Shown one piece after another: positions 13,083 through 44,207 of a DNA stretch of 44,207 nt. Both the position numbers and the translations under genes were made by a program. Under the pieces are notes generated by a model. It was not told where the DNA came from. It saw only the letters and a program-made list of their open reading frames with translations, and did not search any database. The stretch lies in NCBI GenBank assembly GCA_903832775.1, contig CAILCX010000116.1, positions 1 to 44,207 on the forward strand. The letters run 5' to 3'. The DNA comes from an uncultured Methylobacter sp. (GTDB taxonomy: Bacteria; Pseudomonadota; Gammaproteobacteria; Methylococcales; Methylomonadaceae). Numbering within the stretch: the first letter of the stretch is position 1; the number at the start of each line of letters is the position of its first letter.

Positions 13083-14743
13083 GACTTTTGTTTCCGCTTA
13101 TAAATCAATATCATCAAAATAACCAGACCAATACCTAAACCGGTTGCCAAGCCAAACAGGATGAGTCGCAGATAATCAGGCTTTAACAAACCGGGTTCGC
13201 CCAATAGCGGCGCGAATTCGCCTTGCCCCCATACTGCCTGTTTTTTTGCGTAATAATCTTTATTAAAAACCTGATCAAGCAAAGCCTCATGCATTTTTGG
13301 CATGCCTTGCTCATCAAGATAAGGCTTATAGGCCAGTATCGCAATATTACCGCCCGGTTCCATGCCATCAGTGGTTGTGCCGGTCGGGACATGGTCATGA
13401 AACATCCATAAACCCGGGCCATAACTGTGTAAACCGTCGTTTCGGGTTTGCAAACGTAAATCAAGTCGTTGCGCCGGAGCAATATCGAAGACATCGCGGG
13501 TTATTTGCGTGGCTTCGGGTTGGTCGACGCCATCATAAGCAGTGATGGTAGCCTTATGACCGTGAATATGTAGAGCAACTAAAGAGCGCTGGGCATTAGC
13601 CACATGCAGTTTTATATCTTCGTTTTCATTGGCGACAATCAGGCTGTCTCTGAGCGTGTAAGGAAAAGAATGGCCGTTGAGCATGAAGTAGTTTTCAAAG
13701 GACTCAGTCATGTTGTATTCACGGCTCATCCTGTGCGCGATAAGTCTTGGATCGTTAGCCTCCTGAATAATTTTGGCCAGTTTTTTATCAACAGATTGAT
13801 AATATAAATCATATTCCTGGCTGAAATATTTTTGGACGGCAACCGCAGGATGACGCACCTGGCCAGCGCCGATATTAAAGGTTTGCACCCAATTGTCGGG
13901 TTTGTTTTCTTCGACAATGAACAGGCCGTTTAAGCCCATCATATAATGTTGGGCGGTCTGTACGTGGCAATGGTAATACATTGAGCCGGTATGTCTGGGC
14001 TGGATTTCGTAGGTGTGGATTTTGCCGGGAAACACCGGATGTTCTTCCATGCCGTCATTATCGTCACCGGCGGGTGTTAGCCAGGAATGGTCAACGCCAT
14101 GAAGATGTATGGTGTGCGGCAAATAATGGGTGTTTTCCAGCGTGATATAGACTTTGTCGCCCTGCTCAACCCGAATAACCGGGGACGGTGCGCGCAACAA
14201 CGGATTGGCGACCAGGGAATTGAAGTTTTTAAGCGCCATGCCGCTGGATTTGGGAGCATAGACCCAAAGTCCTGGCTGAATACCGGGAGCAATGTCAAAA
14301 GTGTTAATCAGAAAGTCGCCGTCCGGACTGGCGCCGTTAAGTTCCACCACTTCCAGTTTGATGCGAATAATGTCAGGGTCGCCATCGCCATCCAGATCAT
14401 CACTCATCGTTAACGCGTCCTGTGCAAAATGAGTTTGCATCAGCGTTTGCATCGAGACATTATTGGTGCCTTTGACCGACACAGCAATATCATAGGGGTT
14501 ATCAGGTTCGCAGGAGGGCGAGGCTTCAATCTTTACGCCATCAATGACTTGTGCCTCACGCCATTCGGGATGTTCATTCGAGCAGGGTTTTTCGACGGCA
14601 ACGGTTTCCCCGGTACGATTAAAAACAGTTGCAGGGGGCGTTAGTCCCGATTTCTGTAAGGTCGATGGAGCTAAATAAACGGCGCTAGCCGCTAAGCCGG
14701 AGATAACTACTATCAATAAAACGAACAGCGATCTTTTGCTCAT
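13079..14743 (-). CDS. Membrane-anchored multicopper oxidase
   Basis: 554 aa. An N-terminal hydrophobic segment (residues 5-25) and a C-terminal helix (about 525-547) would place the catalytic part in the periplasm. A DLDGDGDPD stretch near residue 115 looks like a calcium-binding loop. Copper motifs in order: HLHGVDH, then YYHCHVQTAQHYMMG, then ALHIHGHK, then MFHDHVPTGTTTDGM. The second motif has the Cys, His and Met of a type 1 copper site; the fourth has Asp where a type 1 Cys would be. The type 1 copper therefore appears to sit in the first half, as in two-domain type C oxidases and copper nitrite reductases, while the His pairs for a trinuclear cluster persist. First gene of a three-gene unit. 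Substrate unknown. Confidence 0.88.
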   Translation of the reverse strand: MSKRSLFVLLIVVISGLAASAVYLAPSTLQKSGLTPPATVFNRTGETVAVEKPCSNEHPEWREAQVIDGVKIEASPSCEPDNPYDIAVSVKGTNNVSMQTLMQTHFAQDALTMSDDLDGDGDPDIIRIKLEVVELNGASPDGDFLINTFDIAPGIQPGLWVYAPKSSGMALKNFNSLVANPLLRAPSPVIRVEQGDKVYITLENTHYLPHTIHLHGVDHSWLTPAGDDNDGMEEHPVFPGKIHTYEIQPRHTGSMYYHCHVQTAQHYMMGLNGLFIVEENKPDNWVQTFNIGAGQVRHPAVAVQKYFSQEYDLYYQSVDKKLAKIIQEANDPRLIAHRMSREYNMTESFENYFMLNGHSFPYTLRDSLIVANENEDIKLHVANAQRSLVALHIHGHKATITAYDGVDQPEATQITRDVFDIAPAQRLDLRLQTRNDGLHSYGPGLWMFHDHVPTGTTTDGMEPGGNIAILAYKPYLDEQGMPKMHEALLDQVFNKDYYAKKQAVWGQGEFAPLLGEPGLLKPDYLRLILFGLATGLGIGLVILMILIYKRKQKS

Positions 14744-18390: not shown

Positions 18391-20127
18391 CTAAGCCTTA
18401 TCATCAAATAACTGTTTTCTGATCAATTGATGCGTTGATTGTATTTTCTGATTATCATCCTGAGCATCCAGATGTCCGGTTTTTAGTCCCGATTCTTCAA
18501 GTTGGTTTTTCAGATAATCGAGATTGTGTTTAATGAGTTCAGCCGTTTTAAAACTGTTGCTTTTAAAAAAAGTATTGATAACCTCATTTCTGTAAGAAAC
18601 CAGGCAATGAATGGTGCCGAGTTCTGGTGGTGTAATAGTGATATTAACCGACCAATCCTTATTACCGGCGTATTGGGTATTTTCTTTTTCCTGCTGGATT
18701 TCAACTCTGACCGATTCGGCCCGCTGTCTGTCCAGAAAGGGAATGTCGATGACCCAGACTTGCTTGGTACTCTCTTCTTTAGGTAACGACACTAACTGAT
18801 CGAGTACAATTTTAGCAACGGTATTTTCGGTTTTAGTTTGTAGGTTTTTGAGCAGATCCAGCTCGACTGGATTCGGTGGCAGCTCACTTTGAGCAGAAAG
18901 CTCTTGCTTTAACGCGTCAATAAATTTTAGTAGATTAGCTTTAAAATCCTCCTGATCTAACGGGGCTGTATTGCTAGTCGCCGTTTGTTTTTCAAGGTTT
19001 AACTTAAGCGCCGCTAATTCTGTAGTGGAAAGTGGTTTAGGCTGACTGGCCGGGATGTTTAGCAGAGGATCTTTTTGTGTCAGATTTTGCAATACATTAA
19101 TGGCTATGCGTTGAATGGAAAGTGGTAAGCTTTCATTTTTAATGAGTTGAGGTAAAACTTTGATTAACTCAGCTTGTGCCGGTAATTTGGCTTCAAGAAA
19201 CAGCCCGGAATTGGTCAGCGCTTGCTTAAGTCCCTGACTGCTGACCAATTGTTCTTTAGGGGGTAGATTCTGGATGATTTGTGCCGCAATATCCTTTAAA
19301 GCCTGGGGAACCGTTTCATTTTTCATGAGCTGCGGCAGATCTTTTATTAATTGATTCAAAAAGACAGGCGCGGCTTCATGTCGCGGTAGAAACTGTTTTA
19401 CAAATTCGGCTATTTTTGCCTCTGATGCGCCAAGATTAGTCTGGGGCGGTATAACCTTGAAGGCTGTCATAGGCCCCGTTTTGATTGCTTCAAGATTCAG
19501 GTTTTGTCCTATTTTTAAATCTGAAGGTGCGTTGAGCAGTTGAGAGCGCTCAATTGTTATTAGTCCCGTTTGTTTAGGACTGGTTTCTGTCGATGGTATT
19601 ATGGTCGCAGTTGTAGTTGGTGCGGTTACAAACTGTAGCAGGATTTTACTGCCGCTTATGTTGACTATTTTTGTGACCAGGGCTTGATTGAGCGGCAAAC
19701 TTGTCTTGGTGGCAAGATCCTTAATTACTGCGATAGCATTACTATCAGCGGCGCTTAAAGGTTGTGCCAGTTCTTTGTTAACAGGGAGGGGCGAATTCTC
19801 AGATGTGTTTGAAATTAATTTTAAGCGCAAGTCAGGTGCCTGACTATTTATTGTAGGCAACGGTGTGACAATTTTAAATTCTATCGTCGGCGCTATTTGA
19901 ATTACCTGGAGTTTTACAGCTTGTCCGGGATTTAGCGTAAGTGGTTGAGTGCTTTGTACGGAGATGTTTTTATTGCCCAAACTTAACGTAATGGCATTTG
20001 TACTGGCTGTTATATCGGTTCTGATAGTTTTAACATCCAGTTGCTGACCGACTCGAAGGTTTAGCAGGTTTTCAACGCTCCTGTTGGTTACGGGCATTTG
20101 GGCATTGAGTAGCGAGTTAATGTCCAC
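18391..20127 (-). CDS. FliK-like hook-length control protein
   Basis: 578 aa, GTG start directly after the stop of the HDOD gene. The N-terminal 450 residues are Thr-, Pro-, Gln- and Leu-rich with repeated LPQLIKNE-like segments (FLNQLIKDLPQLMKNETVP, then ELIKVLPQLIKNESLPL), as in elongated ruler-type proteins. The C-terminal 120 residues carry a FliK C-terminal (Flg_hook) pattern: ITPPELGTIHCLVSYRNEV, then FFKSNSFKTAELIKHNLDYL and KNQLEESGLKTG. FliK controls hook length and the switch in flagellar export specificity. No flagellar genes are nearby, so this may be a second FliK or a FliK-like protein with another role. Confidence 0.75.
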   Translation of the reverse strand: MDINSLLNAQMPVTNRSVENLLNLRVGQQLDVKTIRTDITASTNAITLSLGNKNISVQSTQPLTLNPGQAVKLQVIQIAPTIEFKIVTPLPTINSQAPDLRLKLISNTSENSPLPVNKELAQPLSAADSNAIAVIKDLATKTSLPLNQALVTKIVNISGSKILLQFVTAPTTTATIIPSTETSPKQTGLITIERSQLLNAPSDLKIGQNLNLEAIKTGPMTAFKVIPPQTNLGASEAKIAEFVKQFLPRHEAAPVFLNQLIKDLPQLMKNETVPQALKDIAAQIIQNLPPKEQLVSSQGLKQALTNSGLFLEAKLPAQAELIKVLPQLIKNESLPLSIQRIAINVLQNLTQKDPLLNIPASQPKPLSTTELAALKLNLEKQTATSNTAPLDQEDFKANLLKFIDALKQELSAQSELPPNPVELDLLKNLQTKTENTVAKIVLDQLVSLPKEESTKQVWVIDIPFLDRQRAESVRVEIQQEKENTQYAGNKDWSVNITITPPELGTIHCLVSYRNEVINTFFKSNSFKTAELIKHNLDYLKNQLEESGLKTGHLDAQDDNQKIQSTHQLIRKQLFDDKA

Positions 20128-21009
20128 TTAAGCCAGCATTTTCCGAATATGTTCAATTTCATCTTTCGCCGCATCGAGAATATTAATGCTGTCATCTATA
20201 TTCAAATGACCAGCCAGTTTTTTGTAAGCCGGCAGTGAGTCTATCTTGGGGATTTTTTTGATGTCAACTTTACCAATATAACTGTGTAACTGAGAAATCA
20301 TTACAATATCTGAATAACTGGAAGGACTGGGATCGTTACGAAACCAGTTTTCGGCATTAATTACTACATCTTCAAAGTCTTTGGGAAAATCCCAGCGCCG
20401 CACAATTTGCACTCCGATGTCAGAGCGCAACATTTTTACTGTTTCAACCAGATCTCTGGGATTGGCGATTACATCTGGGTGATTGTCGGCATAGGTTAAA
20501 ATCGGCACGATACCAATATCATGGATCAAACCGGCCAGCATGGCTCGATCAGGATCAAATCCCGGCACTTTATGTGCAAAAACCGCGCTTATGGAAGCAA
20601 TGTAACTGCTGTGCGCCCATAACTCGGTCATTTTTTGACGAATAAAAGCGGATTTAGCGTTAAAGACAGATTTCATCGCAAACGATGTGATAATGTCTTG
20701 AGCCGACTTAAGACCTAATCGGGTCAAGGCTTCCGGACAGCTTTCAATCTTTTTTCGGCCAATATAGAACGGGCTATTGGCGATTTGAATCAAGCGTGCG
20801 GTAATTGACGGATCAATCTGGACGACGCGAGCGATAGAGGAAATGCTGGAGTTATCGTCATTAATGGCGCGACGAATTTTAAAAGATACATCCGGGATAG
20901 TGGGTAAGACCAGATCATCGTTTTGCATATGCCGGTAACAATCTATTAAAAGTTTGTTTTTAGCGAGATTTGCAGCGCTTTGGCTCAGGTTGTTAATGGT
21001 TTGGCTCAT
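20128..21009 (-). CDS. HDOD-domain signalling protein
   Basis: 293 aa. The HDOD domain covers about residues 30-230: LPTIPDVSFKIRRAINDDNS, the helix pair RVVQIDPSITARLIQIANSP, EALTRLGLKSAQDIITSFA, and AMLAGLIHDIGIVPIL, which keeps the His-Asp pair of the HD superfamily. HDOD domains generally lack full phosphodiesterase sites and act as output or scaffold modules in motility and surface-attachment signalling. The FliK-like gene starts at the next base, suggesting joint expression. It is a distinct paralogue from the two HDOD proteins at 32.7 and 42.6 kb. Confidence 0.9.
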   Translation of the reverse strand: MSQTINNLSQSAANLAKNKLLIDCYRHMQNDDLVLPTIPDVSFKIRRAINDDNSSISSIARVVQIDPSITARLIQIANSPFYIGRKKIESCPEALTRLGLKSAQDIITSFAMKSVFNAKSAFIRQKMTELWAHSSYIASISAVFAHKVPGFDPDRAMLAGLIHDIGIVPILTYADNHPDVIANPRDLVETVKMLRSDIGVQIVRRWDFPKDFEDVVINAENWFRNDPSPSSYSDIVMISQLHSYIGKVDIKKIPKIDSLPAYKKLAGHLNIDDSINILDAAKDEIEHIRKMLA

Positions 21010-32682: not shown

Positions 32683-33609
32683 TTAGCCGACGATACTATT
32701 TACTTGATCGACTAGTTTAATAAATTTGTCGCCAATTTTGTCAAGTGACTGTTCAATAGCCGTAACCGGTAAATGTAATGCAGTTAAAATGTCCTCCGAA
32801 TAGGCTTGGGGCTTTCCACTACCAATACCTAGAACAGCCAGCAGGCAATCATTCAGATAGGTCAGTAAATTTAACCGATAATTGTCGCCCCGATAATTTG
32901 GATTGTGATGATGATAGACCACATCAACAATCGGCTTGGGCATGTACCAGGCCGTCATCAACCAGGCGCCCAAGGTCTCATGGGTAACGCCTAAGGCAAA
33001 GCGTTCCAGGGCAACGTTAGATAACGTTGGATTGGCGGCTATTAAATAATTTAAACAGGAAAATTCCCGTGGAAATTGATCACCCAATAAGGGATAACCA
33101 ATATTGTGCAGTAAGGCGACCAGGAATAACTCGTTATCTTCAAATCGGTGTTCGAGCGGAATGTGACTATTCAGCAACGGCATCAGTAGTGAACTGGCCA
33201 TAGCATGAACCCAAAACACACGAGTACCAATCGGTCCGTCTTTAGGGGTTTTTAACAGATTCATAGTCGATAAACTTAAGGCCAGATTAAACACCAGATC
33301 AAATCCTAACACGCGGGAGATGGCCTCGCGGGTACAGACTATTTTTCCAGGATAGCCGTATAACGAGGAACTGGCCCAGCGCAGGATTTGCGCAGTTAAC
33401 AGCGGATCCAGTTCGATTACCGCAGCAAGTTTTTCAGCGTCTGCGGTAGGATCAGCGGCCAACTGGATAATGCGCATCGCCACACCCGGTAAGGCCGGCA
33501 AGGCCTGCAAGGCACTGATATCTTTAAGCAGGTCATAAGGTGACTTGACGCTATTCATTGGAGAATGCAATGTTTTAAAAGACCAGTTTAGTAAAGTTGA
33601 AGGGGGCAT
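32683..33609 (-). CDS. HDOD-domain protein, copy 1
   Basis: 308 aa. The HDOD domain spans about residues 30-235: LPALPGVAMRIIQLAADPTA, AAVIELDPLLTAQILRWASS, EAISRVLGFDLVFNLAL, and ALLHNIGYPLL, in which the HD pair is replaced by HN. That argues against phosphodiesterase activity and for a scaffold or signalling role. It has no signal peptide. A paralogue at 42.6 kb has the same length and about 245 of 308 identical residues by hand alignment. The gene follows the giant multicopper oxidase gene on the same strand, separated by a terminator and other hairpins, so it may be expressed by read-through or from its own promoter. Confidence 0.9.
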   Translation of the reverse strand: MPPSTLLNWSFKTLHSPMNSVKSPYDLLKDISALQALPALPGVAMRIIQLAADPTADAEKLAAVIELDPLLTAQILRWASSSLYGYPGKIVCTREAISRVLGFDLVFNLALSLSTMNLLKTPKDGPIGTRVFWVHAMASSLLMPLLNSHIPLEHRFEDNELFLVALLHNIGYPLLGDQFPREFSCLNYLIAANPTLSNVALERFALGVTHETLGAWLMTAWYMPKPIVDVVYHHHNPNYRGDNYRLNLLTYLNDCLLAVLGIGSGKPQAYSEDILTALHLPVTAIEQSLDKIGDKFIKLVDQVNSIVG

Positions 33610-33763
33610 TTATTTAATAAGGTTGTTATTATTTATTAAGTTACAACATTTTTGGTGGGACGTGCCGTGCGCGCCTTAATTTTCTGTCCGAGCCTAAATT
33701 GCACTTCAATTTTAAATCAGGTAAAGCTGGACTGAGATAACTATTGGCTTGCTTTGTTTAACT

Positions 33764-33789
33764 CAGGCTATGTAAGCCTGGCCGGCTTA
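33764..33789 (-). promoter_or_regulatory. Two mutually exclusive hairpins in the leader of HDOD copy 1
   Basis: CAGGCT (33764-33769) can pair with AGCCTG (33775-33780), and TAAGCC (33773-33778) with GGCTTA (33784-33789). The two stems share AGCC, so only one can form at a time. They lie between the terminator and the HDOD start at 33609. This is a switch-like arrangement by shape only. Confidence 0.4.
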
Positions 33790-33843
33790 AGAAGACGTTG
33801 TCATTTTCTTTTTTGGAAGGCACTGAAGATTTAGATGCGTTCT

Positions 33844-33871
33844 AAAAAAGGGTCGAGGATTTCACCCGACC
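33844..33871 (-). terminator. Intrinsic terminator between giant oxidase and HDOD copy 1
   Basis: Read on the minus strand: GGTCGGG, seven-base loop, CTCGACC (one G-U pair), then C and a run of six T. It is a clear intrinsic terminator, 140 bases after the giant protein's stop. The same structure, with a perfect stem, lies at 43580-43605 before the second HDOD gene. Confidence 0.85.
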
Positions 33872-33882
33872 TTATTTTGTGT

Positions 33883-34000
33883 GGTTCAACTATCTACTGT
33901 TGAACCGGTTTATAAGAAGGATGTTGGCTAAACGGTGTTTTGTGTAGCCAACGGTTCAGGCCCTTAGTTGCTTGAGTTGCGATGTGGCTGCAACCCAAGC
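33883..34000 (-). promoter_or_regulatory. Chain of hairpins in the giant oxidase 3' region
   Basis: Four stems are visible. GCTTGaGTTGC (33970-33980) pairs with GCAACcCAAGC (33990-34000). GTTGGCTA (33923-33930) pairs with TAGCCAAC (33945-33952), enclosed by TGAACCG (33901-33907) with CGGTTCA (33952-33958). GGTTCAA (33883-33889) pairs with TTGAACC (33900-33906), which competes with the outer stem of the previous structure. The competition, directly before the terminator, has the shape of an attenuator. The 7-bp/10-nt-loop hairpin at 33883 has a counterpart at 43618-43641. Confidence 0.55.
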
Positions 34001-34008
34001 GGTTCAGA

Positions 34009-34236
34009 TTACCGCACTGTCACATTGACTGGAGCACTAGTTGCACTTCCACTTGCATTGGTCGCACTCAAAGTCATTGAGTAAGTTCCAGCCGTTGCAA
34101 AGGTGATTTGTTGACCCGATGTGGTTACTGTGGCGGATCCTGTATTACCTGTAGGAGCAGTCCAGTTAACTACATAAGACACACCAGTCTCCGGTGTAAA
34201 GGTCAAACCACCGGTGAATTGAGCACCCGTCACACC
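34009..34236 (-). pseudogene. Detached C-terminal Ig-like domain of the giant oxidase
   Basis: About 75 codons open from just after the giant protein's stop to TAA at 34009, in the -1/+2 frame relative to it. The peptide has a PKD/Ig-like beta-sandwich rhythm: LTFTPETGVSYVVNWTAP, GSATVTTSGQQITFATAGTY SMTLSATNASGS, and ends APVNVTVR. Removing one C in the CTGCCCTAA stretch (34238-34246) would fuse it in frame as ...LTLPNGVTGAQ. The parallel protein at the window edge also ends in a similar beta-sandwich (ATVTIKVN). I take this as the true C-terminus cut off by a one-base insertion. A separate gene starting at GTG 34233 without a ribosome binding site is the alternative. Confidence 0.65.
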
Positions 34237-34237
34237 G

Positions 34238-37200
34238 TTAGGGCAGTGTCAATTGAGTCCAAGAACTACCGTAACCACTGTTACCCGCTGCGTTAGCCAC
34301 CTGCAATTGGAAGCTGTAGCTTGTATACGCAGCCATACCAGTGATAACGGCACTAGTTGATTTCGCTGTCAATGCATTACCCATTTTAACTACACCAGTG
34401 CCTGTCGAAGGCATTTTCGCCCAATTAGTACCACCGTCGATTGAGTATTGCAACGTATAGCCTGTAGCATTTGCCACTGTAGCCCAGTTCACCGTCATGC
34501 CTGATGCAGTCACTAAAGATACACTAGAGATTGACGGCGCAGCTGGCAGCGTTAACTGTGTCAAGGTTATTGCTGGCGAGCAATTCGTACCATCACTATT
34601 GCTGCAAGCAGCGACGGTGACAGTATTTCTCGAATCAGCATTCAGACCCGATACAGTAATTGAAGTCGCAACTTGCGAAACGGCCGTAGCACCATTGACT
34701 GATAAGTTATAACTAGCAGCTCCACTTGTTGGCGGATTCCAGTTCGCTGTAAAGCCAGTTGTTGTAACTCCTGTGCTTGTTGTGAATGCTGGTGCCAATG
34801 GCTGTGTCAGTTGAGTCAAAAAACTACCGTAACCACTGTTACCCGCTGCGTTAGCCACCTGCAATTGGAAGCTATAGCTTGTATACGCAGCCATACCAGT
34901 GATAACGGCACTAGTTGATGCCCCTGTCAATGCAGTACCCATCTTCACTAGTCTACCTGTAGAAGGCATTGTCGCCCAATTAGTACCACCGTTGATTGAG
35001 TATTGCAACGTATAGCCTGCAGCATTTGCCACTGGAGCCCAGTTCACCGTCATGCCTGTTGCAGTCACTGAAGATACGCTAGAGATTGACGGCGCAGCTG
35101 GCAAAGTTAACTGTGTCTTGCTTGTTACAGCTGAGCAAGTCGTTCCTTTGTTGCTGCAAGCAGCGACGGTGACAGTATTGCTCAAACCAGCATTCAGACC
35201 CGATACAGTAATTGAAGTCGCAACTTGCGAAATGGCCGCAGCACCATTGACAGATACGATATAGCTAGTAGTTCCTGTTGGCGCATTCCAGTTTGCTGTA
35301 AAACCATTTGTTGAGACTAATGTGCTTGCTGCGAAAACTGGTGCCGTTGGCGTTACCTGTAAAGTAGTTACAGGATCACTAGCAACACCGCTTACTGTAT
35401 TCGCAATATTAGTCGTGGTATTGGGAGCACTCAAAGCCTGTACACGGAAGTAGTACGTCTTATTGCCGGCCAATCCAGTCACTGCCTGGGTTGTGCCTAT
35501 TACGCCGGTTGCTATGGTGGTCACTGTACCGGTGAATCCAACATTGGCTGCCCGTTGCACGGTGTAGCTTACTGCACCTGGAACCGAAACCCAGTTCAAG
35601 GTAAGAGTCGTCGCTGCAATGCTAGACGCTGTCGGTGCTGCTGGAGTAGCTAACGTTGTTACCGAAGGCGAGATTAGCCAGGCAGACGTTACCGAACTAT
35701 TAGCTACGGTAGCCCTAACCCTGAACACATAGGAGGGAATACTCGGATCTAAGCCCGTCACGCCATAGCTCGAGCTCGTTCCCAATACTACACCCAATGG
35801 AACCCAAGTTCCTTTAGTGGCAGTGCAAGCTGTTGCTGATGCTGCACACTGCTGTACCTCATAGCCGGTTATCGCCGTTCCTGCACTTGCAATCCAGTTA
35901 AAAGTCAAAACAGTTGCATCTGTCGAACTTTTCGTAAAGGGCCCATTGGGAGTGGGAGCGGGAAGTAGTGTAGTAGGAATAACAGCCGTTGGAGGTAACG
36001 GTGCAACACCAGTACCCGTGAGACTCGCACTGAGACTCGTGGTTGGAAAACTAGGTATAGCGTTTACTGTAAGCACTGCATTCTCAGCACCAAGCACAGT
36101 CGGGGTTAAACTTACACCGATCGTACAAGTATTGTTGGTGGTGGGAGGTAGCGTAACCCCAGAGCAAGTATCGCTGACAATTCTGTAATCAGCCGAGTTT
36201 ACGCCTGTTAACGTTACTCCAGTAGCGTTGCTACTCAATGTGATTGGACCAGCGCCAGTGTTAGTGTAAGTAAACATGGTCGTAGGAGTCGAGGCCGCAC
36301 CAACCTGCTGGTTGCCGAAATCCAAGGTACCTACTAACGAGGCAGTAGGTAACACACCAGTTCCTGTCATCGCCACGTTGTTTACTATGGAGGCTCCTGT
36401 TCCACGAACCGTGGTAATTGCCAGTTTCGCAGTTTTTACTCCGGCAGTATCTGGGGTCAGCTTTACAGCGATTGTACAACTCTGATTAAGCGCCAAGGCA
36501 GTTATGCAGCCGTTGTTTGTGATAGTGTAGCCCCCATTTTTAAGGGGATTACACACCGTAGTAGTCTTAGTTCTTGTAGTTGTGTCAACACATATTGCCA
36601 CGCTACTTACTGTCCACTGACTATTTTGCAAATTAGTAACTGTCACAACCTGTGGAGCACTAACCATAGGTACCTGAACACTTCCAAAATCGAGTGCAGT
36701 CGGTGATATCGGCAGTATTCGTGAACCAGTTCCGGTGGCGCCCGAGGAGATGGCCGACTCAGTCGTCACGTTGTCATAACCAGCCAAATTGGCTGTTGGC
36801 GTTGTAATACCCCCCCCAGCAGTAGTTGGAAGCAAAGTAGCCGGTAGACTGGGCAAATAATCCCCTGCGCCGACTGTGTTGTTTGAAATGACTTTGTAAA
36901 AGACAGAATTTTGTCCCGCTTCAACAGAGCTATCAACCCAGTTTCGTGGACATCCTGCCTGACTAGTACACTCCGGTTGGGCAACATTGAAGGTTGCAAG
37001 TCCAGTAGTAAAGTTGCTATCCATAGCCCGTTGGATGGTGACCCAATTAGAAATAACAGAGTTGTCGTTCCAAGAGACAGTAACAGTAGGCGCTTTATTA
37101 CTACCTGAGGTCACCGCTTTTACATTGTCAGGCGCTTCCGGCGTTTGTGCCACGGCGATAGACCGCATCATGTCGTTTTCTTCATGACCCAAAATATGGC

Positions 37201-40200
37201 AGTGCCAGACATATTCCCAACCATAGTTGATGTTGACGTTGGTAACGGTGGACGCATTGCCGGTTTGCGGATCCAGGTTGAAGAAGTTCTGAGCGGCACC
37301 AGTAGGCTGAGCCACTGCATCTTGCGCCAAAGCGGGATCCAATAAGCGATGGCTATTGGGCACCTTGAACGGCAGATTGCTGATAACCCTGGGACGCAAG
37401 GCTACAACAACATCTTCCAGCGGGTTCATCCGCACGGTATCTTTCCAACCAAGTTCGTTAGCTTCAGTTTGACGAATAGTACCATCCCAGCCTACGCGGT
37501 TGACGATTTGCACATGGAACAAGTGAAAATGTATAGCATGAGAGTCAACACCGTTATGAGTAATTCTCCACAACTGTGTACCGTCCGTCAGGGTTCCGGA
37601 AATCGGTGTAGCATTAGGAGTTAATTTAACCAACTCTGTCGGTGGATCGGTATAACCCAAGGGGAGAGCAGTATTGGTAGTTGCCGACGTTTTGGGAATT
37701 TCCACACCCAGCAGGGCATTCATACGACCATAATCCATTGTCCAATCTTCGATGATGGTTTTTGGTTGCATGTCCATGGGCACGGATTGACCCAAACCAG
37801 AGACAAGACCTGTTAGAGAATCAACTGTGTACGGAGTAAAGTTCAGCGCGTAATCCTGAATCAACGCCAGGTTATGATTTATAGCTGAGCTAAGAGATGA
37901 ACCGGTAGCCAGTGTACTGTCAGCAACTTCGATACCATAAGTCGCATTATATGCGGCCTGCGGAACGATAATATGCTCCTGACTGGTTTTGAAAGCAGTT
38001 TGCACTGCTGACGTCAGGTTGGCTATATCAATGTTTCCGGTATCATCCTGACTCGTAGCAGCAGCGGCAGCACCGCCAGTATTACTAACCTGAATCTGCA
38101 TGATGGTGCGGGTGTTAGGCCCGTAACCTGGCAAAGTTGAGAACGCGCCACCGGTGTCGGTGTTGTCATAATCACCGGTGAAATAATCTACACGCAAATC
38201 AAACGCTGGCATCGGCGCCGGCGAATCGTTATACATTAGTAACGTTGCACCAGCGAAATTGGCAAAGTCAACCAGAACATCAGCGCGTTCGGCAGGACCG
38301 AGCAACAACGCATGTTCCTTGACATTGGTAACAACGATGTTTTTCAGATTGTATTCAAAGTTGGTCGGCTGGTTTTGGATAATCACCGGTGTCGATAGAA
38401 AGCCGCCATCAGTGCCAATCTGAACCATCGCGGGACCACGAGTAGCAGGGTCAAATACGCCCGATGGTCGACCATCGAAAGTCACACCAGCGTTTTGCCT
38501 TGTATACCACCAGGACGGAAATTTTGAGACCGTATCCTGACTGTCATTGAATGGCACCATCCTAGCTTCAGTACATTTAGACCGATCCGTTTCAGAAGCA
38601 GATGTAGTTCCTCCATCGCACAACTTGGTGGCACCAGTAGGCTTACCAGCGTTCTGGAGAGCAGTGATTGGATTGCCCTGGGCGTTACTCGCAGCCACTA
38701 CTAGCGATAAATTGAGCACACGGTCGTTACCGACACTCAGTAGACGCAAGCGATACTGTTTCGGATCCACCTTAAGTACAGGGTAAGCAGTACCGTTAAC
38801 CAGTGGGGTATCGTTGAAAGATTCCGGCGTTCCGCTGGGTTGATTCAGCGGGTTAGTTAAGATATTAGCTGCTGTTGTATCAGAATTCCCACCATCAGTG
38901 ACTAAATTATTTGCACCATTAGGCACCCCCGGTATGGTTTGTCCTTCGCAATAGTTCAACGCTGAGGATACGCAAGCCGAATCGTAATATGGGTTAGCAA
39001 CCGCCCCGTGCTGAATGCCGGTAAATGGCGGCCAAAACCATGGGCCATAGTCCCAACGTCCGAAACTGTTGGCGCCGGAAATATCCCCCGGATTCTGATT
39101 GGGCATGAAGACATGAGGTACCCAAAGGTCACCATTACCGTTGGTACAATACGCTGGTAAAGCAGTTGATGCACCTGCCGCACATTCCACAGGTGTTCCT
39201 GTACCCCAACGCCAAGTGGGATCCTGGGAGTTGAGCTGGGTAGCGAAGGGACCAAAGCTGTTCAACACCGGCCTTCCAGGGGTGTTGTCAGGTACGAAGG
39301 TCTTTTCCTGGATAACCAAAGGGATGGTGTCTTGAATAGACGGCAAGACTTTGAGTCTAGCTATGTTGTTTCCGGAAACATTCGTGCCATTGACCAGATC
39401 CTGCTCAGTTGAATCTTGCAACAAATAGCCGGCAGCCATGCCATCATAAACGTTTAGACGAGTGATACCTTCAGCGTGATCGTGATAAAACATCAAACGG
39501 GCGCTTTGCTCGTTGGTGTAGTAGTAAGTCAGGGCACCAGGACCGGGATTAGTGGTCAGGGCGTTGTCAGTAATTTGTTTGGCAGTTGGATTGGTGATAG
39601 CGACTCCATTTACATCGGTAAATAATGCTTGAGTCGATGGATAGAACCACATATCTGGTACATCGGTAGCACTCTCGCCCCTAAGTACTCCATTTTCATT
39701 TGCGGGCTTTATCCACTGCCGCGGCGTTCCATCGCTGATCCAGGGAGTATTGCCACCATGTAAATGCATCGCGGTCCGGTTGTCGGTATCGTACTGACCG
39801 GCGGCGCCCATGTAGGTGTGGTCAACCGGTAACGGTAGATTACCTGCTTCGTGTAACGGCAAGTTATTGATCAGCTTAATGCGCACCGGACGATCTTTAT
39901 GGGCGACGATAATCGGACCCAGATACTGGTTCTTACTTTGTGCGGGTACTGTGTTATCACTTGTATTACATGCCCCTGCTGGAGTCGTTGCTGGAAGAGC
40001 GGGTGGAGGTGTGCAGCCACTTGCAGTGCCAGAATTTATCTGCATGTAACCGCGCAGATGTGTTGCAGGAAGATCAGAGTGTAACTGTTGGGTATATACC
40101 GATTCGCTAATGACATAATAATCGGAACCAGGGAAGGTCGTTGTATCTGGAACCGCCAACGGCAGTGCTTGCCCAAGGTTGTTTACGCCGTTTGTATAAT

Positions 40201-40996
40201 CGGCCCCTGAAACATACGAGGAAACATTAGGTATACCAGGCAACATGTCGACGAATTTCTTCAGACCGGTTCTGGCTATAGGCGTATTGTAACCAGTGCC
40301 TTGATTGTTGATAGTAAAGCCCGTAATGGCACCAACGGTTGTGTTGAAGTTAGCGGTTGCTCCGGTGAATACTTGTCCAGTATTTGATCCAAGACGTATA
40401 GTTGGTTTATGAAGATAACCTCCACTACCCTGGCTGGTAACTGTGATTCCAGTAATCGCATGAGTTTTTGGGTCCACAGTTGCAATTGCGGTAGCGGCTT
40501 CCACTACTGAGTCGGAACTGTTACTGGTAATCGTAAAAATAGGGGGCTTTGCAGGATTATAACCGCTTCCCCCATTGGTAACTGTAATTCCGGTAATGCC
40601 ATTGATGATAGCTGTCGCAGAAGCGCCGGTACCATTACCGTTAACCGTGACTGAAAGGGCATCTGAACTTGTATAGCCAGCACCAGGATTAAGGACTTGT
40701 ATATCTGCTATGCCATCAATATAAGCCCCAGGATTAGGGGAGCTGTAATCATAGGTTGTCGCCGCAGCTGTAGCTTGCGTACCCGAACTGTCAATTGGCG
40801 CAGTAATGGTCACTGTAGCCAAAACCGGCTGTGGACTGTTAGCGTAGTTAGGCACCACACCAAAATAGTCTGGCACCATGCCTGGTCCCGGTGGTGGATT
40901 CTGAATGCCTACGGCGGCAAAGGTACTCGCTGCAAATGCCGCGCTGCCACACACCAGCAATATTTGCCTGATTGATTTAGTTAATGTCATATTCAT
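34238..40996 (-). CDS. Giant secreted multicopper oxidase with ASH-like and fibronectin III repeats (MofA-like)
   Basis: 2252 aa. Signal peptide at residues 1-27 (LLVCGSAAFAASTFA). Residues 60-240 are four or so Gly-rich repeats with a GSGY motif (ITGITVTNGGSGY). A multicopper oxidase module covers about 370-1290, with all four copper motifs: HLHGGNTPWISDG (about 410), FYHDHAEGITR (about 502), HAIHFHLFHVQ (about 1150) and HCHILGHEENDMM (about 1262) with the type 1 Cys, His and Met. Then a fibronectin III domain, two ASH-like domains (LDFGSVQVP; LDFGNQQVG) and six fibronectin III domains. The oxidase part resembles MofA, a putative manganese oxidase of Leptothrix; that is family memory, and the substrate is unproven. 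The start has GGAGG six bases upstream and overlaps the small upstream gene by four bases. Confidence 0.88.
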   Translation of the reverse strand: MNMTLTKSIRQILLVCGSAAFAASTFAAVGIQNPPPGPGMVPDYFGVVPNYANSPQPVLATVTITAPIDSSGTQATAAATTYDYSSPNPGAYIDGIADIQVLNPGAGYTSSDALSVTVNGNGTGASATAIINGITGITVTNGGSGYNPAKPPIFTITSNSSDSVVEAATAIATVDPKTHAITGITVTSQGSGGYLHKPTIRLGSNTGQVFTGATANFNTTVGAITGFTINNQGTGYNTPIARTGLKKFVDMLPGIPNVSSYVSGADYTNGVNNLGQALPLAVPDTTTFPGSDYYVISESVYTQQLHSDLPATHLRGYMQINSGTASGCTPPPALPATTPAGACNTSDNTVPAQSKNQYLGPIIVAHKDRPVRIKLINNLPLHEAGNLPLPVDHTYMGAAGQYDTDNRTAMHLHGGNTPWISDGTPRQWIKPANENGVLRGESATDVPDMWFYPSTQALFTDVNGVAITNPTAKQITDNALTTNPGPGALTYYYTNEQSARLMFYHDHAEGITRLNVYDGMAAGYLLQDSTEQDLVNGTNVSGNNIARLKVLPSIQDTIPLVIQEKTFVPDNTPGRPVLNSFGPFATQLNSQDPTWRWGTGTPVECAAGASTALPAYCTNGNGDLWVPHVFMPNQNPGDISGANSFGRWDYGPWFWPPFTGIQHGAVANPYYDSACVSSALNYCEGQTIPGVPNGANNLVTDGGNSDTTAANILTNPLNQPSGTPESFNDTPLVNGTAYPVLKVDPKQYRLRLLSVGNDRVLNLSLVVAASNAQGNPITALQNAGKPTGATKLCDGGTTSASETDRSKCTEARMVPFNDSQDTVSKFPSWWYTRQNAGVTFDGRPSGVFDPATRGPAMVQIGTDGGFLSTPVIIQNQPTNFEYNLKNIVVTNVKEHALLLGPAERADVLVDFANFAGATLLMYNDSPAPMPAFDLRVDYFTGDYDNTDTGGAFSTLPGYGPNTRTIMQIQVSNTGGAAAAATSQDDTGNIDIANLTSAVQTAFKTSQEHIIVPQAAYNATYGIEVADSTLATGSSLSSAINHNLALIQDYALNFTPYTVDSLTGLVSGLGQSVPMDMQPKTIIEDWTMDYGRMNALLGVEIPKTSATTNTALPLGYTDPPTELVKLTPNATPISGTLTDGTQLWRITHNGVDSHAIHFHLFHVQIVNRVGWDGTIRQTEANELGWKDTVRMNPLEDVVVALRPRVISNLPFKVPNSHRLLDPALAQDAVAQPTGAAQNFFNLDPQTGNASTVTNVNINYGWEYVWHCHILGHEENDMMRSIAVAQTPEAPDNVKAVTSGSNKAPTVTVSWNDNSVISNWVTIQRAMDSNFTTGLATFNVAQPECTSQAGCPRNWVDSSVEAGQNSVFYKVISNNTVGAGDYLPSLPATLLPTTAGGGITTPTANLAGYDNVTTESAISSGATGTGSRILPISPTALDFGSVQVPMVSAPQVVTVTNLQNSQWTVSSVAICVDTTTRTKTTTVCNPLKNGGYTITNNGCITALALNQSCTIAVKLTPDTAGVKTAKLAITTVRGTGASIVNNVAMTGTGVLPTASLVGTLDFGNQQVGAASTPTTMFTYTNTGAGPITLSSNATGVTLTGVNSADYRIVSDTCSGVTLPPTTNNTCTIGVSLTPTVLGAENAVLTVNAIPSFPTTSLSASLTGTGVAPLPPTAVIPTTLLPAPTPNGPFTKSSTDATVLTFNWIASAGTAITGYEVQQCAASATACTATKGTWVPLGVVLGTSSSYGVTGLDPSIPSYVFRVRATVANSSVTSAWLISPSVTTLATPAAPTASSIAATTLTLNWVSVPGAVSYTVQRAANVGFTGTVTTIATGVIGTTQAVTGLAGNKTYYFRVQALSAPNTTTNIANTVSGVASDPVTTLQVTPTAPVFAASTLVSTNGFTANWNAPTGTTSYIVSVNGAAAISQVATSITVSGLNAGLSNTVTVAACSNKGTTCSAVTSKTQLTLPAAPSISSVSSVTATGMTVNWAPVANAAGYTLQYSINGGTNWATMPSTGRLVKMGTALTGASTSAVITGMAAYTSYSFQLQVANAAGNSGYGSFLTQLTQPLAPAFTTSTGVTTTGFTANWNPPTSGAASYNLSVNGATAVSQVATSITVSGLNADSRNTVTVAACSNSDGTNCSPAITLTQLTLPAAPSISSVSLVTASGMTVNWATVANATGYTLQYSIDGGTNWAKMPSTGTGVVKMGNALTAKSTSAVITGMAAYTSYSFQLQVANAAGNSGYGSSWTQLTLP
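34251..35366 (-). repeat. 558-bp tandem duplication within the giant gene
   Basis: The last four fibronectin III domains are two copies of a short-plus-long domain pair. The nucleotide sequence around 34253-34360 reappears at 34811-34918, offset 558 bases (186 codons), with only scattered differences over the long domain. The short domains share VATSITVSGLNA and the long ones share VITGMAAYTSYSFQLQVANA. The high nucleotide likeness suggests a recent duplication or gene conversion. Confidence 0.85.
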
Positions 40997-41283
40997 TGCA
41001 TGCCTCCAGTTTTAGTGTGGCCTTTTTGACGTTGATGTTCTTGATGAACCTTATCAAAGTCATTAGGTCGTTCCTGACGCTGTTGGGTGTAGGACATTTT
41101 CAGACGCATTGCAGCTGACTTCCTGTCTGAATGAGGTGTTTTGTGCCGGGTATTTTGAGACTTGATCTGCTCGGCCTCAGTCGCGCGGGGAAGATTTGAA
41201 CCATTCCTAGCATATGCAACCCCTCCACACAACGAGGCAACAAGAGTTGTTAAGCACAACACTTTCGTTAGTTTGTTTTTCAT
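40993..41283 (-). CDS. Small secreted basic protein coupled to the giant oxidase
   Basis: 96 aa. Signal peptide MKNKLTKVLCLTTLVASLCG with a cleavage site after VAYA; the mature part is about 71 residues, rich in Lys, Arg, Gln and His. Four His lie in the last 20 residues (VHQEHQRQKGHTK preceded by other charges) and Met pairs occur as AAMRLKM and GGM at the end. An AAGG ribosome binding site precedes ATG 41283. Its stop overlaps the giant oxidase start (ATGA), so the two are translationally coupled. I do not know the family. A role as copper carrier or assembly factor is a guess from the His/Met content and coupling. Confidence 0.75.
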   Translation of the reverse strand: MKNKLTKVLCLTTLVASLCGGVAYARNGSNLPRATEAEQIKSQNTRHKTPHSDRKSAAMRLKMSYTQQRQERPNDFDKVHQEHQRQKGHTKTGGMQ

Positions 41284-42561
41284 TTTAAAAACCTTTTTTG
41301 AATTTTAATCTATTGTTTTACCTGAACTTTTGCTGAGGTATCTAGGGGGAATTATTTATTTCTTGTTAAATATCTCTCGGTGATTTCTATGAAATAGATT
41401 TGTTTAAAAAAATTATGTTAACTATCAATATTGTTGGCTCTCTTTTGTTTTCCATTTCAAGAGCCAACTATGAATCCATTCCACCTTCGCCACGTTCATC
41501 GTGTTTTATCCAACTAAAATCGCAAAATAAATACAACAAACATGCAACCTTACAAGTGATTTAGCAATTTGTAGTCCAACTATTGATTTTCTGTGTAAAT
41601 AAAAATTTAAGTTATTGTTTTTTATTGTAATTAAAATTTTTTTCAGGTGATAATTTCGCTCTTTATCCGCTGTATTATGTTAGAGGTCCGTTTTTTAGAG
41701 GTTGCTTGCTGTTATTTATCGATTACCCGGTTGCTAAAAAACAGAGTCCATGTATTTTTGGCGGAGATTTTATGTTTTAAATGGAGGATTAATGACGATT
41801 GAGAATATAAAAATCAATGAGTTAATGGTATTTTGTTGTTAACGGCGGCGTTAATTAATGAATGCTACTTTTCGGCTGGGGTCTAACAGCTAAACTGGTT
41901 TTATTGGATTGATTTTTATGGCTTACTGGGGTCGCTTTAACTGACGTAGCTGACGTTAATGACAATAATTATGATAATGATAAAAATGTCAAGACAACAT
42001 TAACCGTATATTATTCAAAAAAATTCACTCTAGGCACTTAAATTGCAAGCGGATTCGCTTCTACATTTCGGGGAGGAGCTTTAATCGATCTGGCAATAAA
42101 AATGAGCGTTCTGAGGCAGTTTAAGTAAAAAAATGGTAATTAAGCCTGACAAAATTGTCATGATCATAAATTATGTGATGGATGGCGCGTTTTTTTTAGC
42201 AACTAACTGGTAGGGGTAGATCTGTTACGATGAAAAACGTCAATCCCCCGAATCTAAATTTTGCTGAATGGGTAAAGATATTTAGTGGGGTAAAGCTGAG
42301 GATTACATTTGTAGCCCACATCACTCAGCACTGATGAGTTGCTATGCGCTAAGTTATCCGGGATTTTTGTTTACTTTCGCTGGCAAGGTGGTGGCGGATT
42401 ATTGTTTATTGTGTATAACTGGACGGGACTAATCATCCCGCAGCTTTATGGGAGATAGTATAAAGACTAAATGCTATGCATCGTTTGCGATTGAGGTCAT
42501 TTGCTTTGTTCATCTTAACCTATAGTCATTTAGCTTTACTCTTGGAATGGATTGTTTAAAT
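41284..42561. other. 1.28-kb AT-rich gene-free region upstream of the giant oxidase operon
   Basis: No protein of convincing length is found on either strand. Items seen: a 16-codon ORF with a strong GGAGG at 41792-41842 (+); a 34-codon ORF at 42230-42334 (+) that begins MKNVNPPNLNFAEW and may be a remnant of a longer gene; an inverted repeat TGACAA-aa-TTGTCA at 42147-42160; and a Fur-box-like string at 41961-41986. The region must hold the promoter of the operon starting at 41283 and the 3' end of HDOD copy 2. I could not identify a -35/-10 pair with confidence. Confidence 0.6.
41961..41986. promoter_or_regulatory. Fur-box-like hexamer array (candidate)
   Basis: GACAAT-AATTAT-GATAAT-GATAAA is close to the repeated GATAAT hexamers of Fur operators. 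It lies in an AT-rich region about 680 bases upstream of the operon start, too far for simple repression of that start unless the transcript begins nearby. AT-rich chance likeness is possible. Confidence 0.25.
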
Positions 42562-43488
42562 TTACCCGATGATACCATCGACCTGATCTGTAATAGTGAT
42601 GAACTTGTCGCCAAGTTTCTCAAGCGACTGATTAATCGCTGTGACGGGTAAATGTAATTCAGCTAAAATTTCCTCGGTATAGATTTGTGGCTTTCCATTA
42701 CCAATACCCAGGCCACCCAGCAGGCAATCATTCACATAGGTCAGTAAATTTAATCTATAATTGTCGCCCCGATAACCTGGATTGTGATGATGATAGACCA
42801 CATCAATAATCGGCTTGGGCATAGACCAGGACGTCATCAACCAGGCGCCCAAGGTGTCATGGCTAACGCCTAAGGTAAAGCTTTCCAGTGCAACTTCAGA
42901 CAACGTTGGATTGGCGGCCATTAAATGATTTAAACAGGTAAATTCCCTCGGAAATTGATCGCCCAATAAAGGATAACCAATATTGTGCAGCAAAGCGGCC
43001 AAGCATAACTCGGTATCTTGAAACCGGTTTTCAAGCGGAATGTGACTATTCAGCAACGGCATAAGCAATGAACTGGTCATGGCATGAACCCAAAAAAATC
43101 GGGTGCCAATGGGCCCGTCTTTAGGTGCTTTTAACAGCCCGATGGTCGATAAACCCAGGGCCAGATTAAACACCAGATCAAAACCTAAAACGCGAGAAAT
43201 TGCCTCGCGTACACTGACTATTTTTCCGGGATAGCCGTACAACGAGGAGCTGGCCCAGCGCAGGATTTGCGCGGTTAACAGCGGATCCAGCTCGATCACC
43301 GCAGCCAGTTTTTCAGCGTCGGCGGTTAAATCAGCGGCTAACTGTATAATGCGCATCGCCACACCCGGTAAGACGGGCAAGGTCTGTAATTCACTGATCC
43401 GTTCAAGTAAGTCATAAGGTGATTTGAGCGTATTCAGTGGTGAATTAATAGTATCAAGCGTCCAGCTAATTAAAGAGGGATTCATCAT
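42562..43488 (-). CDS. HDOD-domain protein, copy 2
   Basis: 308 aa, paralogue of the protein at 32.7 kb, with about 63 differences in my hand alignment, most of them in the first 40 residues and the last 100. HDOD features match: LPVLPGVAMRIIQLAADLTA, AAVIELDPLLTAQILRWASS, EAISRVLGFDLVFNLALGLS and ALLHNIGYPLL, again HN in place of HD. It has no signal or membrane segment. Like copy 1, it lies downstream of a large secreted repeat protein on the same strand, behind a terminator and a 7-bp hairpin. The conserved synteny suggests duplication of the whole module. Confidence 0.9.
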   Translation of the reverse strand: MMNPSLISWTLDTINSPLNTLKSPYDLLERISELQTLPVLPGVAMRIIQLAADLTADAEKLAAVIELDPLLTAQILRWASSSLYGYPGKIVSVREAISRVLGFDLVFNLALGLSTIGLLKAPKDGPIGTRFFWVHAMTSSLLMPLLNSHIPLENRFQDTELCLAALLHNIGYPLLGDQFPREFTCLNHLMAANPTLSEVALESFTLGVSHDTLGAWLMTSWSMPKPIIDVVYHHHNPGYRGDNYRLNLLTYVNDCLLGGLGIGNGKPQIYTEEILAELHLPVTAINQSLEKLGDKFITITDQVDGIIG

Positions 43489-43579
43489 TGTTCGTTAAAT
43501 ATTGTCATTGAAGTAACTTCGCTCTTTAGTCTTTAGGATTCCTTTTTTAGAGTGCACAATTGGCATATATACACTCTAG

Positions 43580-43605
43580 AAAAGGGTCGGGAATTTCACC
43601 CGACC
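43580..43605 (-). terminator. Intrinsic terminator before HDOD copy 2
   Basis: Minus strand: GGTCGGG, seven-base loop, CCCGACC, then CTTTTC. The 7-bp stem is perfect. It is the counterpart of the terminator at 33844-33871. Confidence 0.85.
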
Positions 43606-43617
43606 ACGTTTTCAATT

Positions 43618-43641
43618 AGATCAAAGGAGTGCCGTTGATCT
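43618..43641 (-). promoter_or_regulatory. 7-bp hairpin preceding the second terminator
   Basis: AGATCAA (43618-43624) pairs with TTGATCT (43635-43641) around a ten-base loop, 12 bases from the terminator. In the other module GGTTCAA/TTGAACC has the same stem and loop lengths at nearly the same distance (11 bases). The paired changes in the stem (GG-CC to AG-CT, T-A to A-T) keep pairing. Confidence 0.6.
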
Positions 43642-43688
43642 AACATTTTCAGCTAGTAGCTCTTAGCCTGATGTTAAGCTTACGTAAA

Positions 43689-43731
43689 CCGAGATTTCAT
43701 GGCTTTGATATCTCGGAGTCCGTTACACTCC
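43689..43731 (-). promoter_or_regulatory. Two hairpins just after the second large gene
   Basis: CCGAGAT (43689-43695) pairs with ATCTCGG (43710-43716), and GGAGT (43715-43719) with ACTCC (43727-43731); they overlap by two bases. They lie within 70 bases of the stop of the edge gene and may protect its 3' end. Confidence 0.45.
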
Positions 43732-43754
43732 ATAAGAGTTATTTACTACTCGGT

Positions 43755-44207
43755 TTAGTTCACCTTAATGGTGACAGTTGCCGGACTTGAAGTAACTCCG
43801 CCATAAGTTACTGTATAGGTAAACGTATAAGTGCCGCGCTTCGATTCCTGTCTAGCATTGTTACCTGTTGCAGTAGGCGTGGTAACAGTGGTAACAGGTG
43901 AAGTTAACACCATACTAACAGCACCTGCAGTCGTTACGGATACAGCCGCCGTAGCCGGAGTAGTTCCTCCACCTGTGTGCGTAACCGCACTAACATTAGT
44001 CACTGTCCGGCCTGCTGCGCCCGAAGGCAGAGAATTGGTCAGCACGTTGACACCAATGTTAGTCGCACTCAGGGTTTGCGTTGTAGCAGCTACCGCTGTA
44101 GCACTTACAGCAGAGGTCACTGAGTAGGCTGCCGCCAACGGTTGCGCCACTGCAGTTGAAGTTAACCAGGCTGACGTTACCGGATTAAACGCTTCTACCC
44201 TAAACAG
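43755..44207 (-). CDS. C-terminal end of a second large FN3/Ig-like secreted protein (partial)
   Basis: The frame is open from the window edge (44207) to the stop at 43755, giving at least 150 residues; the GTG at 44150 is internal. The first residues, LFRVEAFNPVTSAWLTSTA, match the end of a fibronectin III domain of the giant oxidase (FRVRATVANSSVTSAWLIS). Next is an Ala/Thr/Val-rich beta-sandwich region (VSVTTAGAVSMVLTSP) and a final Ig-like strand set, RGTYTFTYTVTYGGVTSSPA. The rest of the protein, and whether it carries an oxidase module, is outside the window. HDOD copy 2 is downstream, repeating the arrangement at 32.7-41.3 kb. Confidence 0.75.
   Translation of the reverse strand: MFRVEAFNPVTSAWLTSTAVAQPLAAAYSVTSAVSATAVAATTQTLSATNIGVNVLTNSLPSGAAGRTVTNVSAVTHTGGGTTPATAAVSVTTAGAVSMVLTSPVTTVTTPTATGNNARQESKRGTYTFTYTVTYGGVTSSPATVTIKVN

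Follow-up and report, generated by a model that had tools for sequence, protein, structure and literature searches.

HDOD genes behind giant MofA/OmpB-type multicopper oxidase genes in an uncultured Methylobacter: a gene link that is rare elsewhere, and its possible meaning for regulation

Why should the gene for a stand-alone HDOD-domain protein lie, twice within one stretch of DNA, behind the gene for a giant secreted oxidase? This question is raised by positions 1 to 44,207 of contig CAILCX010000116.1 (assembly GCA_903832775.1, an uncultured Methylobacter sp.), which are referred to here as the window, and the contig as C116. The genome comprises 3.86 Mb in 215 contigs and is 99.6% complete; KTt_bin-1808, an uncultured Methylobacter bin, is a member of the same genus, to judge from places in G014 and CAIKYI contigs that match. 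The window holds two genes for multicopper oxidases (MCOs) of the MofA/OmpB type, each with a small gene in front and a structured element behind, followed by an HDOD gene. The link between the two kinds of gene is real in this genome and rare elsewhere. The relevant features, all on the minus strand, are the following.

32683-33609, minus strand: HDOD1, a stand-alone HDOD-domain protein of 308 residues (PF08668, E 7e-46, 156.6 bits)
33808-33850, minus strand: hairpin P5 behind the first MCO gene, its 5' arm formed by the terminator U-run (covariation over 9 loci)
33851-33871, minus strand: hairpin P4 of the intrinsic-terminator type after mofA, followed by a U-run (model R1, 74.3 bits at 33804-33873)
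33883-33906, minus strand: hairpin P3, preceding P4 behind the first MCO gene
33923-33952, minus strand: hairpin P2 behind the first MCO gene
33970-34000, minus strand: hairpin P1 behind the first MCO gene, stop-proximal and of the GGGTTGC..GCAACCC kind
34009-34237, minus strand: open stretch in another frame with what looks like one more Ig/PKD-like domain of the MCO (by eye), with an apparent frameshift near 34238 (stop-free in 1 of 3 frames)
34238-40996, minus strand: giant secreted MofA/OmpB-type MCO of 2252 residues with C-terminal FN3/Ig domains (Cu-oxidase_2, fn3, copper motifs)
40993-41283, minus strand: small basic protein of 96 residues, probably exported (by eye), directly 5' of mofA (relatives 5' of other MCOs)
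41563-41579, minus strand: weak sigma54-like site, TTGG-N8-TTGCT, 296 bases upstream of the small gene (score 0.81, shuffle p 0.0075)
42562-43488, minus strand: HDOD2, 308 residues (PF08668, E 4e-44, 150.8 bits)
43542-43584, minus strand: hairpin P5 of the second MCO gene (covariance model)
43585-43605, minus strand: terminator-type hairpin P4 of the second MCO gene (covariance model)
43616-43643, minus strand: hairpin P3 of the second MCO gene
43755-44207, minus strand: 3' end of the second giant MCO gene, which continues on contig C7 (L047:1-5250; exact 141-base overlap, MCO match on C7)

The product of the gene at 34238-40996 matched Cu-oxidase_2 and fn3 (2.7e-32) above the Pfam cut-offs, carries all four copper motifs (HLHG, FYHDH, HAIHFH and HCHILGHEEND) and appears by eye to have an export signal. 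An open frame at 34009-34237 runs past the stop of this gene at 34238, and the apparent frameshift, whether real or an assembly error, removes the last Ig/PKD-like domain (domain type by eye) of the first giant MCO. At the window edge, the last 141 bases of C116 are identical to the first 141 bases of C7, which carries the remainder of the gene (about 1853 residues at full length, by hand sum). Since C7 continues it as an MCO gene, the protein cut off at the edge is likewise an oxidase. A preliminary description, made from the letters of the window, had reported two minus-strand HDOD genes of about 80% identity behind large FN3/Ig-type secreted proteins, and this was borne out by the PF08668 matches and an identity of 79.5%, with export judged by eye. 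It had taken one of the giant proteins for an oxidase, which is right for 34238-40996 and too few by one, and had proposed to read on past 44207; the second large protein completed in this way is an MCO and not an unrelated gene.

The four copper-ligand motifs were present in all 24 MCOs compared, including the three HDOD-linked ones of this genome. Judged by these motifs and by the gene order on C18, the two oxidases of the window and that on contig C18 are of the MofA/OmpB type, a known kind. Altogether, the genome encodes five related MCOs, on C116, C7, C18, C142 and C23. C18 presents the full mof operon in the order small gene, MCO, HDOD, FKBP, cytochrome c protein and SCO1, and thereby a third MCO-HDOD pair. 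This order matches, as far as excerpts of PMC5566968 and PMC8218464 describe them, the mofABC cluster of Leptothrix discophora, the ompB cluster of Geobacter sulfurreducens and the ompB/mofA clusters of iron oxidisers. On C142, mofB and mofC adjoin the MCO gene and no SCO1 was found. The two MCO genes of the window differ from mofABC/ompB in that no mofB or mofC lies beside them, only the small gene and the HDOD gene; further differences are the HDOD gene beside mofA, the small-protein gene in front of it and a 3' hairpin element specific to mofA. Relatives of the small protein are encoded 5' of the MCO on C18 and C7, and in 6 of 20 MCO loci (L091, L092, L094, L096, L100 and L101). Across the order, such an MCO was found at E≤1e-30 in at least 23 of 301 genomes sampled, counts per genome being lower bounds with two candidates scored for each. 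At a cut-off of 1e-20 it was found in none of 22 other genomes of the genus, and a class-wide extension gave 4 of 369 genomes, the present one included.

HDOD1 and HDOD2 score far above the PF08668 cut-off of 22.9 bits. No YbaK match was found in either by Pfam, which returned HDOD only, plus an HD match below the cut-off in HDOD2. The genome contains 22 HDOD matches, nine of which form one close family. The catalytic HD pair has been lost in all nine, being HN in 8 (HDOD1 included) and RN in 1, and all nine retain an intact reading frame. Three of them lie behind MCO genes, one (C126) lies behind a gene for a PAS-sigma54-Fis activator, and five are orphans. The closest solved relatives are the 457-residue chains 9qzk (2.8e-54) and 3mem, which we take to be of YbaK-HDOD build; the match covers their C-terminal parts. 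The HDOD part is thus like that of SadB from Pseudomonas, and the differences are the missing YbaK part of the window proteins and the usual position of the family's gene behind a sigma54 activator gene. SadB, a YbaK-HDOD protein, has been tested and reported to bind cyclic di-GMP (c-di-GMP), according to excerpts of PMC6543031. A second likeness is to MmoQ of Methylococcus capsulatus, a methanotroph HDOD protein encoded beside the copper-controlled soluble methane monooxygenase cluster, as excerpts of PMC7994243 have it. Membership in the MmoQ group is weak by sequence (1.5e-17 for the solved MmoQ chains, which do match the HDOD, versus 2.8e-54 for 9qzk), and both the oxidase and the partner genes are others.

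The usual home of this HDOD family in the loci examined is behind the PAS-sigma54-Fis activator gene. A pattern-based scan of the genome_contigs collection gave 17 named HDOD loci at ≥48% identity, plus two remote ones, and the activator gene was directly upstream in 14 of the 17 (one locus being cut by a contig end). Locus L067, from Methylotuvimicrobium buryatense 5G, carries activator and HDOD as a pair. The canonical HDOD copies of G224, G078 and G129 also have the activator upstream, which brings the total to 17 of 20 distinct loci examined. Immediately upstream of the orphan on C78, the Fis end of the activator survives in decayed form (46% over 39 residues, 7e-8). Related exported PEP-CTERM-like proteins (weak matches, below cut-off) are encoded between mofA and mofB in G192 and G290, and the same kind also occurs beside the activator-HDOD operon in L062, L064 and L068 (coordinates L091:3269-4066, L092:5302-6306 and L062:7056-8458). 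Genes of the sigma54-activator type adjoin MofA-type MCO loci (L115:2361-3719 and L100:4634-6076) in two genomes without this HDOD.

None of the 17 named HDOD loci, which are 3.8-20.9 kb long, contained an MCO gene. The recurrence across several species that the preliminary description expected was therefore not found in the family-wide scan, and the single further case surfaced from the MCO neighbourhoods, of which 20 and then six more were read. Among the five other genomes with both families, adjacency was seen in these neighbourhoods only in G224, a member of another genus. Its operon (L099) runs on one strand through MCO, MofC and SCO genes and, after a 33-base gap, the HDOD gene. The encoded HDOD protein (PF08668, 306 residues, 35% identical) falls outside the clade of the window HDODs (approximately unbiased (AU) test 0.003; long branch). 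A literature search on both terms found no earlier report tying an MCO to HDOD, and the excerpts of a Methylobacter bioanode paper (PMC13322032) contain neither term. The view that no such system had been described accordingly does not hold for the oxidase operon, since mofABC is described, and stands, within that search, for the tie between the oxidase and an HDOD signalling gene.

The oxidases and the HDOD proteins have separate histories. In the MCO tree, G192 of another genus is the sister of C18, with C116 as the next branch, and C7 falls together with G135, so that MCOs of other genera fall between the three HDOD-linked ones. The three MCO-linked HDODs form one young clade (support 100/99), which branches from within the genus's own expansion. 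Monophyly of the three HDOD-linked MCOs was rejected (AU 1e-59; 6e-9 on the trimmed core), as was a sister relationship of the C116 and C7 MCOs (5e-9; 8e-4 on the trimmed core); the trimmed-core tree is without G122, whose sequence either stopped short of the last motif or failed to fit the pattern. A grouping of HDOD1 with the C18 HDOD, as the MCO tree would predict, was likewise rejected (AU 6.5e-4). At fourfold sites, HDOD1 and HDOD2 are identical in 72 of 108 positions versus 136 of 366 for their MCOs (Fisher 8e-8); the difference is smaller for HDOD2 and the C18 HDOD (44 of 88) versus the C7 and C18 MCOs (171 of 416). The conflicting trees and fourfold sites mean that the HDOD genes came to sit beside mofA genes of separate origin, or that gene conversion homogenised them. 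Gene conversion may have played a part, as the nucleotide identity of HDOD1 and HDOD2 drops from 0.93 inside the gene to 0.64 over the first 90 bases. In this genus, then, the HDOD family has multiplied and one sub-clade has come to lie behind three mofA genes with differing ancestry.

Between the two kinds of gene lies the structured element, which was found behind mofA on C116, C7 and C18 and in G192, G152, G229, G122, G244 and G228. It consists of a terminator-type hairpin with a U-run that doubles as the 5' arm of a second hairpin. In the three loci of the window genome the terminator has a GGTCGGG-type stem followed by CTTTTTT or CTTTTCT, and in G244 and G228 a third hairpin replaces it (by eye). 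Over nine sequences, 10 of the 16 pairs of the second hairpin have changed on both sides, with a covariation of 0.434, where shuffles gave 0.166 and sliding no more than 0.108. The intrinsic terminator and preceding hairpin that the window spacers had been said to share were recovered by the covariance model at 74 and 69 bits, both spacers being training rows. Over 16 whole genomes, with 150 candidates scored per genome, the model gave 17 matches in 7 genomes, all at mofA 3' ends (9 at full length and 8 partial ones on the opposite strand in the same places). As the nine full matches are the training rows, it is the specificity and not the detection that counts as a result.

The element was previously read as a structured leader of the HDOD gene. 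Such an HDOD-specific leader is ruled out, as the element belongs to the mofA 3' end and occurs there without HDOD: six of the seven element-bearing genomes have no adjacent HDOD gene. A general terminator repeat is also rejected, the matches among the 150 candidates scored per genome being confined to mofA 3' ends. The element is absent behind other mofA genes, for example those of G206, G135, G290 and G224, and no Rfam release 15 family matched it in the loci scanned. We infer that it caps the mofA mRNA and that a minority of transcripts would read into HDOD or mofB. A stop-proximal GGGTTGC..GCAACCC hairpin was also observed behind mofA in the other MCO branch (G023, G149 and G220), and such arms lie 36 bases apart behind the MCO gene on C142 (L049:5755-5810).

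Sites of the sigma54 type (GG-N10-GC) were looked for within 500 bases upstream of 584 genes from the fetched loci. At a threshold of 0.93, set after looking and applied with consensus weights taken as general background, 8 of the 584 genes had a strong site, and 7 of these 8 belonged to the 86 system genes, i.e. mofA, HDOD or activator genes (hypergeometric 8.5e-6). They were mofA of G224, G208 and G078, two orphan HDOD genes and two activator-type genes; the eighth was the gene for an exported protein (L069, weak PEP-CTERM matches) beside the activator-HDOD operon. Control spacings 1-2 bases off gave 0, 0, 1 and 2 sites. At 0.86, 9 of 19 sites were at system genes (5.7e-4). The G224 MCO has a full-score site 337 bases upstream. 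At p≤0.01, sites were found before 4 of 11 mofA genes in genomes with HDOD versus 0 of 18 elsewhere (Fisher 0.014). A scan of the whole window at 0.86 returned four sites, none of which is oriented at an MCO or HDOD gene.

In two other genomes, riboswitches precede MCO genes of mof clusters. In G220, the distance from the end of a c-di-GMP-I riboswitch (RF01051) to mofA is about 100 bases, and a second MCO gene has such a riboswitch in front as well; in G152 one precedes an MCO gene beside mof. The second MCO, of 875-883 residues, is that of two genomes of one genus, and the riboswitches lie at L108:7141-7219, L108:2443-2522 and L094:2089-2168. At least 76 RF01051 matches were obtained in 16 of 23 genomes, and among the candidates scored 3 were at MCO genes of mof clusters. 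Because just 3 of 76 are so placed, we take this link as support and not as proof. The ligand of these riboswitches may be c-di-GMP or cyclic GMP-AMP (cGAMP). There was no RF01051 match in the window between 30000 and 44207; the five matches in this genome are all on contigs other than those of its mof genes.

The explanation that we consider best, and to which we give close to an even chance, is that an HDOD circuit linked to sigma54 and c-di-GMP influences mofA. Like SadB, the HDOD protein would serve as a signal output without catalytic activity, linked to c-di-GMP and acting as partner of the sigma54 activator, and some mofA genes would be under sigma54 control in genomes with the activator-HDOD pair. 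HDOD copies next to mofA would be co-expressed with it, the terminator holding them at a lower level, and might feed back on the timing of oxidase production, for instance in attached or biofilm growth or according to copper or metal supply. Together with a MofC-type cytochrome c and SCO1 copper delivery, the oxidase would carry electrons between the cell and metal at the surface; for the window MCOs, these partners would have to be supplied by the mof operon of C18, which is complete. A metal-redox role at the surface is a candidate activity for oxidases of this type. The organised surface or metal-oxidation system under HDOD signalling, as first suggested, thus retains its MofA/OmpB-type oxidase adjoining an HDOD gene, with the C18 pair as a further instance, while the control itself is our inference, supported by the sigma54-type sites and by the riboswitches in other genomes.

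Several observations weigh against such a circuit. Both families occur together in 6 of 301 genomes of the order, which is near the chance expectation (4.6, from 23 and 60) if the MCO and HDOD draws are treated as the same 301-genome sample. No HDOD match at E≤1e-12 was found in 15 of the 22 other MCO genomes, and mof therefore does not need HDOD; the riboswitch-bearing G220 and G152 also have no match to this HDOD at that cut-off. Within the window genome, six of the nine close HDOD copies are not beside an MCO gene, and a terminator separates mofA from HDOD. The post hoc threshold and the use of background motif weights count against the sigma54 result, and at p≤0.03 or 0.05 the mofA comparison becomes 5 of 11 versus 2 of 18 (Fisher 0.07). 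The site of the C116 mofA, one of the four at p≤0.01, is weak, that of the C7 mofA scores 0.68 (p 0.12) and C142 is likewise not significant. No sigma54-type site was found before HDOD1, HDOD2 and the C18 HDOD (p 0.52, 0.47 and 0.13) or before the genome's own activator gene on C126 (p 0.40), and a strong site is absent before most activator genes elsewhere.

Some of these points would also be expected from hitch-hiking, a possibility that we hold to be real, if somewhat doubtful. On this account the HDOD genes multiplied without any role in mof, one of them landed behind mofA and was either carried to other mofA loci through recombination at their like ends or homogenised there by gene conversion, and the protein acts elsewhere or not at all. 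The six copies away from MCO genes, two orphans that are present in a related Methylobacter bin too, and the missing sigma54-type sites of the mof-linked copies all fit this. So does the identity drop over the first 90 bases, as gene conversion would leave it, and the shared element at the mofA 3' ends could serve as homology. However, the chance of adjacency is small, at roughly 0.01 for one event in this genome and 0.005 expected in the five others with assumed gene and operon numbers, and both adjacencies occurred. The clustering of sigma54-type sites at mofA, HDOD and activator genes and the intact frames of all nine HDODs also speak against it.

We consider it improbable that the HDOD proteins act not on transcription but on some other step, for example how the giant oxidase is secreted or folded. 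This idea would suit the C18 HDOD gene, which occupies the place between mofA and mofB, the folding helper, a place that the exported PEP-CTERM-like protein (weak, below cut-off) takes in G192 and G290. However, the usual neighbour of the family is a sigma54 activator, and HDOD proteins are cytoplasmic in type. A simple duplication of the whole MCO-leader-HDOD module, as the preliminary description proposed, has the like gene order and spacer structures of the two copies in its favour. It is highly improbable, and its tandem form is rejected by the tree conflict and the fourfold-site identities.

Oxidases of the MofA/OmpB type may take part in metal oxidation and in extracellular electron transfer. 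According to excerpts of the literature, it is still debated why aerobic methanotrophs can persist where water is poor in oxygen. If the HDOD circuit proposed above is true, its control over when the enzyme is made would connect methane oxidation with biofilm life and metal cycling. A wider form of the proposal is, as a whole, rather unlikely: a c-di-GMP-tied pair of sigma54 activator and HDOD would be a switch of MofA-type oxidases in many Methylococcales, others would use c-di-GMP riboswitches, and a new 3' RNA element of one mofA branch, its U-run captured by a covarying hairpin, would set the output of the downstream operon. The element is in itself a compact, covarying RNA structure.

Lastly, two genes lie elsewhere in the window. 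A third and more distant HDOD gene at 20128-21009 (PF08668, 1.3e-42) adjoins a FliK-type gene at 18391-20127, and a further MCO of ordinary size (554 residues) is encoded at 13079-14743.

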